DNA from: Spiribacter salinus M19-40
GTDB lineage: Bacteria; Pseudomonadota; Gammaproteobacteria; Nitrococcales; Nitrococcaceae
Direction: 5' to 3'
DNA length: 64,000 nucleotides
Assembly: GCF_000319575.2 (NCBI RefSeq)
Contig: NC_021291.1
Span: forward strand, 62,001 to 126,000
Shown: positions 31,705 through 40,120 of the stretch, piece by piece
Numbering within the stretch: position 1 is the first letter of the stretch
How the letters are laid out: each line of letters opens with the position of its first letter
Made by a program: the position numbers and the translations under genes
The notes under the pieces: model-generated
What the model was told of the DNA's origin: nothing
Database searches by the model: none
Seen by the model: the letters and a program-made list of their open reading frames with translations, nothing else

Positions 31705-32775
31705 ATGAGCGTGCGCAATCCCAATCGCGTCTTCATCTGGATTCTGGGGTTTTTGGTGGCCGTGGCGGCCGTCGCAGGGCTGTTGTTTGCGCCTCTGCAA
31801 GAGGCCTTTATCGCCAACCCGGTGTTCAACGGGCTGATCCTGGGTGTGCTGCTGGTGGGCCTGGTCATCAACTGCCGCCAGGTGCTGGTGCTCAAACCCG
31901 AGGTGGACTGGGTGGAGCGTTTCCGGCATGCCGGCGACGGTGATGCACCGGCCCTGCCCCGCAGCCGTTTGCTCGGCTCGATGGCGCGGATGCTGACCGG
32001 ACGCAGCGGTGATCGATTCAGTCTCTCGGCGATGTCATTGCGCACGGTACTGGACGGGATCCGCTCACGGCTGGATGAGTCCCGTGATTTGTCGCACTAC
32101 CTGATCGGGCTGCTGGTGTTCCTGGGGCTACTCGGGACGTTCTGGGGCCTGCTGGATACCCTGCGTGCCGTGGGCGCGGTCATTGGTAACCTCACGGTCA
32201 GCGGCTCGGATGCCGGGCAAATCTTCACTGAGCTACGGGACGGCTTGCAGGCGCCGCTGACCGGCATGGGCACGGCCTTCAGCTCGTCGCTGTTCGGTCT
32301 GGCCGGCGCCTTGGTCCTGGGGTTTGTGGATTTGCAGGCCTCGCACGCCCAGAACGGGTTCTATAACGATCTCGAGGAATGGCTGTCCGGACAGACGCGT
32401 CTGTCCAGCGGCTCACTGGGCGGCGAGGGGGAAGGCTCCGTACCGGCCTACATCCAGGCATTGCTCGAGAACACGGCCGATAGCCTCGATAAGCTCCAGC
32501 GCATCATGGCCCAGGGCGACGACGAGCGACGGCATACCGACGCCCGCCTGATCGAGCTCACCGAGGAGATCTCGCGCCTGGCGCGGACCAATGAGGCGAC
32601 CGGCGCCGTGGACAGCGAGCAGACCGAGCACCTGCGCTCGATGGCGAGCGGCCTGCAAGGGCTGCGCCAGGATCTGCTGGCCGATCGTGAGCGCCTGGTC
32701 GGCGAGCTCCGCGATGAGGTCCGCCTGCTGACCCGCACCGTCTCGCACCTGCGCGACGGCGACGACGGGCACTGA
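31705..32775 (+). CDS. MotA/TolQ/ExbB-type proton-channel protein
   Basis: A 356-residue protein. Predicted membrane segments are at about 10-29, 38-58, 131-150 and 188-210; the last two form the channel pair with GLLGTFWGLLDTL and PLTGMGTAFSSSLFGLAGALVLGF, the Gly/Ala/Ser-rich motif of MotA/TolQ/ExbB. A cytoplasmic segment (about 65-128) separates the pairs and a coiled-coil tail (about 245-345) follows. A GAGGGG sits only 2 bases before the ATG but 8 before an in-frame GTG at 31711, so GTG may be the true start. It is paired with the OmpA-like gene 8 bases downstream. There are no flagellar or Tol genes nearby. Confidence 0.85.
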   Translation: MSVRNPNRVFIWILGFLVAVAAVAGLLFAPLQEAFIANPVFNGLILGVLLVGLVINCRQVLVLKPEVDWVERFRHAGDGDAPALPRSRLLGSMARMLTGRSGDRFSLSAMSLRTVLDGIRSRLDESRDLSHYLIGLLVFLGLLGTFWGLLDTLRAVGAVIGNLTVSGSDAGQIFTELRDGLQAPLTGMGTAFSSSLFGLAGALVLGFVDLQASHAQNGFYNDLEEWLSGQTRLSSGSLGGEGEGSVPAYIQALLENTADSLDKLQRIMAQGDDERRHTDARLIELTEEISRLARTNEATGAVDSEQTEHLRSMASGLQGLRQDLLADRERLVGELRDEVRLLTRTVSHLRDGDDGH

Positions 32776-32783
32776 GCCAGCGC

Positions 32784-34082
32784 ATGCTGGGCAGCAACCG
32801 CCGGGGTCGGTCAGCGGTCAACATTTGGCCGGGTTTTGTGGATGCGCTGGCAACCATCCTGCTGGCATTTGTTTTCGTGCTCATGCTCTTTGTGGTCGCG
32901 CAGGTTTACCTGAGCAGTCAGTTGTCCGATCGCAATCAGGCACTCGAGGCCCTGCAGGCCGAGCTCTCGGACATGGCCGAGGCCTTGTCCATGGAGCGCA
33001 GCGAGCGCGAGCGCCTCGAAGAAGAGGTCTCCAGTGTCTACGCCGAGCTGCACGCCACCCTGTCGCAGCGTGATGAGGCTCAGGAGGCCCTCGCGGCGAC
33101 CCGCGAAGAACTGGAGGCCGCGCGAGAAGAGATCGCCATCGGTGAAGACACGCTGGAAGCGCGCCTGGTTGAGATCGCCTCGCTGCAGCAAGACATTAAT
33201 GCCCTGCGCGAGGTCCGTGACGAGCTGGAAGCGGAAGTCGGCCAGCTCGCCGCCTCGCTGGAGGAAACGCAGGCCGAGCTCGGGGCGGCGCGAGACCGCA
33301 GCCGCGAGCTCGAGGCCGAACTGGCGGATGCCGAAGAGCGCACTCAGCTCGCCCAGGCCGAAATCGAATCCCAGTCGCTGCGTATCCGGGATCTGGTCGC
33401 TGAGATCGCGGAGCGCCAGGATGCCCTCGAGGCCGAGCAGTCACTGACAGCGGATGCCGAGGCGCGGGTGGAGGCGCTGCGCCGGCAGATCCGCGAGTTG
33501 CGCAATCAGATCAGCACGCTGGCCGAGGCCTTGCGAGTCGAGGAAGACACGGTCGCCGAGCAGCAGACCCGAATCGATACCCTGGTGGAGCGTTTGAACG
33601 TCGCCCTGGCTGAGGAAGTCCAGGAGCTCTCCAGTTATCGCTCGGAATTCTTCGGCCGGCTGCGGGAGGTGCTGGACGATGTGGAGGCCATCGAGATTGT
33701 CGGCGATCGCTTTCGTTTTCAGTCGGAGCTCTTTTTTGAGACGGCCTCCGCGGATCTGGGCCCGGAAGGGGAGGAACGACTGGGACAGGTGGCCGCCAGC
33801 CTGCGACAAGTCGCGGATCGCATCCCGGCGGACATCGACTGGGTGCTCCAGGTGGAGGGGCATACCGATCGCCGGCCGATTCGAACGCCCGAGTTCCCGT
33901 CCAACTGGGAGCTTTCTACTGCCCGGGCACAGGCGATTGTGTATTACCTGATCGATGAGGGTATTCCGGCGCGGCGCCTGGCCGCCGTGGGTTATGGCGA
34001 GTACCAGCCCGTGGCCGAGGGTGAGGATGCGGAAGACCTGGCCCGCAACCGCCGTATCGAGCTGCGGCTGAGTAATCGCTGA
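32784..34082 (+). CDS. OmpA-domain protein with N-terminal MotB-like helix and long coiled coil
   Basis: It has 432 residues. A single membrane helix (about 18-42) contains Asp20 at the position where MotB-type proteins carry the proton-binding Asp. Residues about 45-290 are an almost unbroken heptad-rich coiled coil with Glu/Ala/Leu/Arg. Residues about 300-430 form an OmpA-like peptidoglycan-binding domain (VEGHTDRRPI, SNWELSTARAQAIVYYL, VGYGEYQP, RNRRIEL). Together with the MotA-like partner this is the architecture of an ion-driven 5:2 motor reaching the cell wall. The physiological job is unknown. Confidence 0.88.
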   Translation: MLGSNRRGRSAVNIWPGFVDALATILLAFVFVLMLFVVAQVYLSSQLSDRNQALEALQAELSDMAEALSMERSERERLEEEVSSVYAELHATLSQRDEAQEALAATREELEAAREEIAIGEDTLEARLVEIASLQQDINALREVRDELEAEVGQLAASLEETQAELGAARDRSRELEAELADAEERTQLAQAEIESQSLRIRDLVAEIAERQDALEAEQSLTADAEARVEALRRQIRELRNQISTLAEALRVEEDTVAEQQTRIDTLVERLNVALAEEVQELSSYRSEFFGRLREVLDDVEAIEIVGDRFRFQSELFFETASADLGPEGEERLGQVAASLRQVADRIPADIDWVLQVEGHTDRRPIRTPEFPSNWELSTARAQAIVYYLIDEGIPARRLAAVGYGEYQPVAEGEDAEDLARNRRIELRLSNR

Positions 34083-37432: not shown

Positions 37433-38146
37433 CTAAATCGAGCGCTGATTGACCCGGGCAGAGACCTCTTCGGCTGATTCGATGCGCTCGGAGTAGCGGT
37501 CGACCAGATAGTCCCGGCAGCCGCGGGTCAGGCGGGTGAACTTCACGAGCTCTTCCATGACATCGACGATGCGGTTGTAGTACGGCGAGGGCTTCATGCG
37601 CCCATCGTCCTCGAACTCGAGATAGGCCTTGGGTACTGAGGACTGGTTGGGGATCGTGATCAGCCGCATCCAGCGGCCGAGGATGCGCAGTTGGTTGACG
37701 GCGTTAAAGCTCTGCGAACCGCCGTTGACTTGCATCACCGCCAGCGTCTTGCCCTGGGTGGGGCGAACCCCGCCCATGTTGAGCGGGATCCAGTCGATTT
37801 GCGCTTTCATGATGCCGGTCATCGCCCCATGGCGCTCAGGGCTCGACCAGACGAACCCATCCGCCCACGTCGCCAGTTCCCGCAGCTCCTGGACCTTGGG
37901 ATGGTCGGCCTCAGCGTCGTCCGGCAGCGGCAAGCCGCTGGGGTCAAAGACCTGGGTGTCCACGCTCAGGCGCCGAAGAATGCGCGCGCCTTCAAGGGCC
38001 ATCAGCTTGCTGTACGAGCGCTCGCGCAGTGATCCATACAACAGCAAGATGCGGATCGGTGCCTCGCCGGCTGGCGTAAGGAGCGTCGGGTCGTCGACCG
38101 GCTTAAAGGCGGCCTCGACCAGGTTGGGTGTGGTCTCATCACTCAT
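37433..38146 (-). CDS. arsH: Arsenical resistance protein ArsH, NADPH-dependent FMN reductase
   Basis: 237 residues. The flavodoxin-like fold has the FMN phosphate motif [10 protein letters not shown] and the ArsH-specific [19 protein letters not shown] and [13 protein letters not shown] segments. ArsH oxidises trivalent organoarsenicals and reduces flavin or quinone. Last gene of the ars operon; its ATG overlaps the acr3 stop (ATGA). Confidence 0.96.
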
Positions 38147-39240
38147 GTCCCGCTCTTTTGTAGCACCGCCGTGGCACGCTCGTACCAGCCCCTTGAAGTG
38201 TTCACCAGCTTAACGAGGGCCAGCATGACGGGCACCTCCACCAGCACGCCCACCACCGTGGCGAGCGCGGCCCCGGAGTTCAACCCGAACAGGCTGATGG
38301 CAACGGCGACCGCTAGCTCAAAGAAGTTGGACGTCCCGATGAGCGCCGCGGGTGCGCCAATGCTGATGGGCACGCTCCAACCCCGAGCCCACAAATACGC
38401 CAGCCCGAAGATCCCGACGCTCTGAATGATCAGCGGAATCGCAATCAACACGATGACCAGCGGCTGATTGAGGATGCGCTCGCCCTGGAAGGCAAACAGC
38501 AGCAACACCGTGACCACCAGGCCGATAACCGTGATCGGCTTGATGCGCCCGGTAAATTCATCGACCGCGGTCTGTCCGCCTTTGCCGAACAAATGCTGCC
38601 GGGTGAGCGCGCCCACGATCAGGGGAACCACCACGTACAGGCCCACCGATAGCAACAGCGTCTGCCACGGCACGATCACCTCGGCCACGCCGAGCAGCAG
38701 GGCGACCAGTGGGGCGAAGGCGAAGATCATAATCAGGTCATTAATCGCGACCTGGACGAGGGTGTAGGTGGCGTCTCCCTCGGTAAGCTGGCTCCAGACA
38801 AACACCATCGCCGTACACGGCGCGGCGCCCAGCAGGATCATCCCGGCGATATAGGCCTTGGCGTCATCGGGGGGCACCAGGCCGGCGAAAAAACCCTCGA
38901 AGAACAGCAGAGCCAGCCCCGCCATGGTGAACGGCTTGATCAGCCAGTTGATCACCAGGGTAATGGTCAGGCCCTTGGGCCGGTCGCCCGCATGGCGCAG
39001 TGAACTGAAGTCCACATTGATCATCATCGGGTAGACCATCGCCCAAATGAGCACGGCCACGACCAGGTTGACGTTGGCGATCTCCAGACCGCTCAGCCAC
39101 TCAAAGGCGGAGGGGAAAAACTTACCCAGGGCGATCCCCGCGACGATGGCGAGCGCCACCCAGACACTGAGATAACGCTCGAACCGACCCATGACCTCGC
39201 CGGTTGCACGCCGGGCGGTTACATCACACTGTGCACTCAT
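38143..39240 (-). CDS. acr3: Arsenite efflux permease, ACR3 family
   Basis: A 365-residue inner-membrane transporter with about ten hydrophobic helices. ACR3 hallmarks are seen: [31 protein letters not shown] with the functional Cys, and [20 protein letters not shown]. Arsenite is exported by proton-motive force. The start at 39240 is chosen because it forms TAATG with the arsR stop. Confidence 0.96.
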
Positions 39241-39617
39241 TACTGACACTCACTTCGGTTTTTCGCGATGGCGCGGGTGACGCGCCGCTCGTCGTCGGTG
39301 TAGGGCGGTTTGTCGGCTAATGACTGACAGATGGCATCGACGGTGGTGCGCAGCCAGTCGGGTCGATCATGCCGCAGCTGATAGTGGATCCATTGCCCGC
39401 TGCGGCGCGTTTCCACGAGACCGCTGTCGCGTAGCGTGGCCAGATGGCGGGACATCTTGGGCTGACTCACTCCCAGGGTCTCGGTAAGCTCGCAGACGCA
39501 CAGCTCACCACGGCGGTTGAGCAACACCACCGCCCGCAGGCGTGTCTCATCGCCGAGCAGCCGAAACAGCTCCGTGGCGCTCAACGCTTGAGCAGCATCG
39601 GTGTGATGCGCTTCCAT
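39240..39617 (-). CDS. arsR: ArsR family arsenite-responsive repressor
   Basis: 125 residues with a winged HTH. The sequence [34 protein letters not shown] contains the CxC metalloid-sensing pair at the start of the DNA-binding helix, as in E. coli ArsR, so it should lose DNA binding when As(III) or Sb(III) binds. The ATG at 39617 overlaps the arsC stop; a GTG one codon upstream is less likely. It lies inside its own operon. Confidence 0.95.
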
Positions 39618-40120
39618 CACTCTTCCTCAGGCTGGGTTTTGCCGATGGACTCGAGCTTGTCCTGGAGCTTGAGCCGATCCAGCGAGGCGATGGGCAGATT
39701 GGTGAACAGCCCAATGCGGCTGCGCAGGGCAATAAACGCATCGCGGAAGGCCCGCTCGCGGACCTCATCCGAGCCCTCAACCGCTGCGGGATCGGGCATA
39801 CCCCAGTGGGCCGTCATGGGCTGACCCGGCCAGATCGGGCAGGGTTCGGCGGCCGCCTGGTCGCACACGGTAAACACGAAATCCATTTTCGGGGCATCTG
39901 GGCCGCTGAAGACATCCCAGTTTTTGCTGTGCAGTCCCTCCGTGGGGAGTCGCATCTGCTCGAGGAGCTTGATCGCCAGCGGATTCACCTGCCCGGCCGG
40001 GAAGCTGCCCGCGCTGTAGCCGGTGAACTGGCCCCGGCCCGTGTGGTTGATGAGCGCCTCGGCCAGGATGCTCCGTGCCGAGTTGCCGGTGCAGAGAAAC
40101 AAAACGTTGTAGTGGGACAT
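39617..40120 (-). CDS. arsC: Arsenate reductase, low-molecular-weight phosphatase type
   Basis: 167 residues. The P-loop LFLCTGNSARSILAEAL sits at the N-terminus with the catalytic Cys, and FVFTVCDQAAAEPCP supplies further Cys residues for the thiol relay. This is the arsenate reductase family related to LMW tyrosine phosphatases, with a C-terminal extension beyond the usual 135-140 residues (RAFRDAFIALRSRIGLF...). It is first in the arsC-arsR-acr3-arsH operon; GGAAGAAG precedes the ATG. Confidence 0.94.
   Translation of the reverse strand: MSHYNVLFLCTGNSARSILAEALINHTGRGQFTGYSAGSFPAGQVNPLAIKLLEQMRLPTEGLHSKNWDVFSGPDAPKMDFVFTVCDQAAAEPCPIWPGQPMTAHWGMPDPAAVEGSDEVRERAFRDAFIALRSRIGLFTNLPIASLDRLKLQDKLESIGKTQPEEE

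Follow-up and report, generated by a model that had tools for sequence, protein, structure and literature searches.

The adjacent genes described here, termed A and B, are best explained, in our judgement and with moderate confidence, as encoding a 5:2 ion-driven motor that has a stiff, wall-anchored B shaft, is related to ZorAB, and serves housekeeping in the cell envelope. They lie within a window of 64,000 nucleotides (the whole stretch of DNA that was analysed) of a genome that consists of a single contig of 1,739,487 bases. Motors of the 5:2 type, driven by the proton motive force, power swimming, gliding, nutrient uptake, outer-membrane stability, and phage defence. Surveys expect further members to be found (PMC12204202). 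New in the present analysis are a rule of seven-residue steps in the length of the B coil, and a third gene, C, found in about half of the loci.

The initial annotation had described a channel gene followed, after 8 bp, by a gene for a protein with an Asp20-bearing membrane helix, a long coil, and an OmpA domain. Coordinates, strand, gap, and each of these elements were confirmed; Table 1. The start of A is listed as the ATG at 31705. Its relatives begin with MRNP..., which corresponds here to an in-frame GTG at 31711, leaving the first two residues of A uncertain and making the GTG a possible alternative start. Elsewhere in the window, sequence inspection indicated a compact, putative arsenic-resistance set (37433-40120, minus strand), with flavoprotein-like, Acr3-like permease, ArsR-like regulator, and arsenate-reductase-like genes.

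Table 1. Features of the A-B locus, with positions in the window, and of comparison loci, with positions in the locus named.
Feature	Position	Strand	Basis
Gene A, MotA/TolQ/ExbB-type channel protein, 356 aa	31705..32775	+	ORF and translation, AF2, VIA
Tyr132 codon of A, start of membrane helix 3	32098..32100	+	alignment
Thr145 codon of A, helix 3, putative ion-path Thr, GLLGTFWG motif	32137..32139	+	alignment
Ser195 codon of A, helix 4, putative ion-path Ser	32287..32289	+	alignment
Cytoplasmic coiled tail of A	32446..32772	+	AF2 helices 248-352, alignments
A-B intergenic gap, 8 bp	32776..32783	+	
Gene B, PRK09039-family protein, 432 aa	32784..34082	+	NF006543 match
Membrane helix of B, residues 16-40, WPGFVDALAT...	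32829..32903	+	Asp20 invariant
Asp20 codon of B	32841..32843	+	invariant column
Coiled coil of B, residues 41-284, 244 residues	32904..33635	+	AF2, hydrophobic period
OmpA-type peptidoglycan-binding domain of B, residues 304-430	33693..34073	+	PF00691, structure match, invariant columns
Gene C loci	L064-L143, L164-L188; e.g. L117:8861-9964, L167:5834-7075		
S. meliloti locus: thiE, 381-aa Sel1-repeat gene, inositol monophosphatase, A, B	L272 (CP090106.1):11340-15979		

The AF2 model of A (56 alignment rows, mean pLDDT 82) consists of four long membrane helices and a tail, the helices of which (248-299 and 304-352) agree with the earlier observation that the channel protein itself ends in a coiled coil. 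The segment between helices 2 and 3 comprises only ~33 residues, and thus holds no flagellar torque domain. Structural comparison of the model with VIA-align gave a Z of 12.0 with TolQ (8vlw_A, rmsd 3.9, 194 aligned), followed by 11.6 with ExbB, 10.9 with ZorA, and 9.9 with MotA; helical bundles readily attain such values, yet these four proteins top the list, consistent with the sequence. None of the profile models fits A well: Pfam MotA_ExbB scored 18.6 bits (E 0.0016) against the protein, with a curated cut-off of 22.9, and 23.7 bits against the A frame together with its adjoining stretches. Alignments revealed that Thr145 of helix 3 is invariant in A, ZorA, TolQ, and ExbB. Ser195 of helix 4 is invariant in A, and the residue aligned with it is Thr in TolQ, ExbB, and MotA and Ser in ZorA, while Tyr132 is common to A and ZorA only, among the families compared. 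The tail ends in a conserved RLLTRT motif. It falls ~27 residues short of the tails of near relatives, its length being otherwise nearly constant in the family.

Protein B belongs to a catalogued, uncharacterised family, matching the NCBIfam model NF006543 (PRK09039, “peptidoglycan-binding protein”) with 401.7 bits against a cut-off of 305. Asp20 is invariant in both family alignments. The AF2 model of B (mean pLDDT 83) shows a helix from residue 16 to 176, a second helix from 183 to 297, and then the OmpA fold; the membrane helix runs directly into the coil, and no plug was seen in the model. The wall domain matches PF00691 (6.2e-17), superimposes on the wall domains of MotS and MotB with a TM-score of ~0.8, and contains the invariant residues Asp362 and Arg381. 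The conservation of Asp20, Thr145, and Ser195, together with the fold shared by A, TolQ, ExbB, ZorA, and MotA, supports the rotary layout proposed initially, and we are fairly confident that the two proteins make up an ion-driven unit of 5:2 type.

The conserved WPGFVD and YRSEFFG motifs served as end points for measuring the B coil in 130 homologues, in which it ranges from 125 to 855 residues. The coil in this genome, estimated at about 240 residues in the initial annotation, measures 244 between these anchors, and has a hydrophobic period of 3.50, the strength of which was equalled in 0 of 2000 shuffles. Its length is 6 mod 7, a property shared by 104 of the 130 sequences and by 32 of the 52 distinct lengths; the other moduli tried, from 4 to 18, gave no signal. 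A tree computed with the coil left out supplied 48 independent, branch-disjoint pairs of unequal coil length. The difference was a multiple of seven in 34 of them (binomial p ~1e-18), and 3 or 4 mod 7 in 12 of the remaining 14. Length shifts of 3 or 4 mod 7 are the classical stutter and stammer. The two control segments, the A tail and the proline-rich linker of protein C, did not follow the seven-rule (3 of 30 and 0 of 16 pairs, respectively, differed by a multiple of seven). The heptad register is identical at both ends of the coil. The steps of seven, the controls that lack them, and the common end register indicate that selection keeps the coil continuous and in register, and the rod is very probably one uninterrupted, phase-locked coiled coil that extends from the membrane helix to the wall domain. 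Steps of seven are expected of any continuous coiled coil; they argue for continuity, and not for torque transfer.

An origin of the rule by mutation alone was rejected, as 91 of the 113 B genes without any tandem array still have coil lengths of 6 mod 7. Tandem DNA arrays were observed inside the coil in 13 of the 130 B genes, each with a period divisible by 21 bp, i.e. heptad duplication; no array of such a period was found in the B gene studied here. A precedent for the length rule, and for the rule only, is provided by the linkers of PadC phytochrome-cyclases, in which most length differences between natural coiled coils are multiples of seven, the next class being -4 (PMC9587094). The PadC linkers, unlike the B coil, are short, cytoplasmic, and devoted to signalling.

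The AF2 model of B contains a break at residues 172-182, which is of low confidence and falls where the alignment is thin; a bend in the rod at this position is possible. A hairpin rod, with residues 41-176 and 183-297 as its legs, is disfavoured, since its loop would tolerate any length and the observed lengths step by seven. Coil length also varies by clade, with 153 residues in most Rhizobiales-type loci and 244-258 residues in the kin of Spiribacter. The longest coils (387-855 residues, in B proteins of ~580-1045 aa) occur in a single, probably Rhodobacteraceae-like family spread over many genera (f67, L190-L203). At 0.1485 nm per residue of straight helix, the residue counts correspond to straight rods of ~19-127 nm across the family. 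The gap between membrane and wall is smaller than ~19 nm, the length of the shortest straight coil. Most B rods therefore cannot stand upright, and must tilt or bend, which makes the earlier suggestion of a long bridge from the inner membrane to the wall doubtful for the family.

From the folds and the conserved residues, we infer a mechanism in which five A subunits would form a channel ring around a B dimer, and ions would travel along the ring of Thr145 and Ser195 in A, passing Asp20 of B. Having neither a plug nor a floppy linker, the axle made by B would lead from the membrane helix through the stiff, in-register coil to an OmpA domain that grips peptidoglycan. By analogy with MotAB and ZorAB (PMC11890865), the wall would hold B still and leave the ring of A subunits, cytoplasmic tail included, to rotate. 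A simpler arrangement can be envisaged, in which the rod is a passive tether or sensor that anchors the inner membrane to the wall, with no useful flow of ions. Such a role would suit a rod and wall domain that are evidently constrained and elaborated, as well as the apparent lack of a plug to control leakage, but a tether has no need of the ion-path residues that are invariant in both subunits, and we regard this arrangement as improbable.

A-B pairs are frequent among proteobacteria, whether these have flagella or not. Of the 397 Pseudomonadota genomes sampled, 106 contain the B family above cut-off, in line with the initial statement that such pairs exist in proteobacteria, and A is present in 34 of 40 relatives. 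Loci with A (called by GC3 scoring where GC-rich) were found in named genomes of Azospirillum, Magnetospirillum, Roseomonas, and Tahibacter, and in several beta- and gammaproteobacterial MAGs. Each of the 138 loci that contain both genes has B on the strand of A and downstream of it, at a distance of no more than 250 nt in 137 of them. Comparison of the lists of B and fliF matches revealed 12 sampled genomes with B above cut-off and no fliF, in addition to the present genome, in which no fliF candidate was found and separate TolQ- and ExbB-like genes are encoded elsewhere. Homologues are thus not always tied to a known Tol or flagellar system, the circumstance that the initial annotation had named as speaking against its reading.

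A maximum-likelihood tree placed A in one clade (SH-aLRT 96), which groups with ZorA types 1 and 3 (SH-aLRT 98) and apart from MotA, TolQ, and ExbB, at a point where long branches meet. Kinship between A and ZorA is likely on these sequence grounds. A variant of the flagellar stator, which the resemblance of the membrane helix and wall domain of B to those of MotB and MotS might suggest, is extremely improbable: A does not group with MotA, the short segment between its helices 2 and 3 leaves no room for a torque domain, and fliF is lacking both here and in the 12 further genomes that carry the B family. For this genome, the stator was rejected on account of the missing fliF and torque domain.

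The absence of adjacent flagellar, Tol, gliding, or Zorya partner genes, reported initially, holds within the 64-kb window. The pair is flanked by a permease gene on one side and by a LysR regulator gene on the other; tolA, tolB, pal, or tonB do not adjoin it, no TolA/TonB-like transducer was seen, and a PADLOC scan of its ten neighbours returned no Zorya model. PADLOC did detect ZorA3 in A (2.6e-13) and ZorB3 in B (1.4e-25). However, A reached only 47 bits with the ZorA3 profile, compared to 455-1089 bits for true ZorA3 proteins; with this low score and no effectors among the ten neighbours, membership of a Zorya system was rejected, and the relationship was retained as one of kinship. Long ZorA type 3 proteins (L237-L246, ~675-1074 aa, 455-1089 bits) were observed in 10 of 219 sampled genomes, which is more than we had expected for a defence system. 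The PADLOC matches, and the grouping of A with ZorA, could also reflect a Zorya-type motor for phage defence, either orphaned or degenerate, which would sense damage to the wall and work with effectors encoded elsewhere. We consider this unlikely given the weak ZorA3 score, the lack of a Zorya model nearby, vertical inheritance through the order, and metabolic neighbourhoods that are unlike defence islands. More probably, A-B is a chromosomal lineage akin to ZorAB that has been inherited vertically and has no defence effectors.

The neighbourhoods of A-B consist of ordinary metabolic genes, and one of them offers a lead to function. In S. meliloti, a Sel1-repeat gene lies upstream of A (Table 1) and fits RgsF (SMc03995), an identity inferred from this agreement; five more loci of Rhizobiales type have a homologue of it upstream of A. 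RgsF is an essential periplasmic protein with six Sel1-like repeats that is found at the growing pole and the septum (PMC7327166, PMC5929573). The neighbourhood in S. meliloti and the five other loci suggests a tie of A-B to polar growth and division. No published phenotype for A or B was found in the main texts of the papers searched. Metabolic neighbourhoods, vertical spread, and the rgsF-like neighbour favour housekeeping work in the envelope over defence, and such a role, most likely in wall growth, division, or envelope upkeep, is the one that we would expect A-B to have.

The initial annotation had also stated that the pair stands alone. This is correct for the present order of bacteria, and no known partners adjoin the pair here. 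The statement does not hold for Rhodospirillales-type loci, in which an exported protein, C, is encoded directly upstream of A, and the picture that it gave is therefore incomplete for the family. Gene C was found in this position in 75 loci (about half), on the same strand and mostly at a distance of 0-240 nt, typically in the order elongation factor P, inositol monophosphatase, C, A, and B. Protein C is composed of a signal peptide, a Pro/Ala-rich linker, and an OmpA-like domain, and is predicted to be exported; its mature N-terminus often carries a motif like VxVDLSVLD, and NCBIfam provides neither an equivalog nor a curated name for it. The OmpA-like domain of C has AYAxG in place of the GHTD of B, and with the HTD aspartate missing, C probably lacks the usual grip on peptidoglycan. 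A few copies (e.g. in L081, L083, and L090) have a lipobox-like site.

These features of C raise the possibility that A-B is a Tol-like energiser, which would pull or position a partner in the outer membrane or the periplasm; in Rhodospirillales-type bacteria, this partner would be C, sometimes as a lipoprotein. The position of C directly upstream of A, its predicted export, the few lipobox-like sites, and an OmpA-like domain that lacks the HTD aspartate of B are all compatible with such a partner. However, C had no match in the present genome at E <= 0.001, and was not found beside A in Ectothiorhodospirales, Rhizobiales-type, or Rhodobacteraceae-type loci, from which it follows that C is not essential to the core mechanism. 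With no TolA/TonB-like transducer seen, a Tol-like energiser is rather unlikely, though a little less so than a defence motor. A more specific proposal, which we advance only tentatively, is that A-B constitutes a separate class of envelope motor, in which a rigid, phase-locked shaft of ~19 to >100 nm, adjustable in whole-heptad steps, would carry torque or position from the membrane to the wall for wall growth or division, joined in many alphaproteobacteria by a third, exported component. The length rule of the B coil makes this mechanical idea testable.

Among known systems, TolQR and ExbBD resemble A-B in the fold of A, which is as close to TolQ and ExbB as to ZorA, and in the conserved Thr/Ser ring, but B carries an OmpA domain and is not of the TolR/ExbD type. 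MotAB and PomAB share with it the four-helix A subunit, and a B subunit whose single helix bears an Asp and whose wall domain is of the OmpA type; they differ in that A-B has no torque interface and no plug, replaces the flexible linker with a coil, and occurs here in a genome without fliF. No OmpA homology has been reported in the B subunits of generic ion transporters (PMC12505986), and since B carries an OmpA domain, A-B falls outside the FIT/GIT scheme (PMC12505986). The model NF006543/PRK09039, of which B is a member, gives no function, and says nothing of A, the length rule, or C. A-B also resembles ZorAB, 5:2 complexes of which were determined by cryo-EM (PMC11890865). A shares the helix-3 Thr, the helix-4 Ser, Tyr132, and a cytoplasmic tail with ZorA, with which it groups, and B, like its counterpart, combines an Asp in the membrane with a wall domain of the OmpA type. 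In contrast to ZorAB, the A-B pair is widespread and vertically inherited, has no adjacent effectors, and combines an A tail of ~110 residues, compared to several hundred in ZorA, with a phase-locked B coil of 125-855 residues. As A-B stands beside ZorA in the tree, it may show a role that the Zorya motor had before defence.
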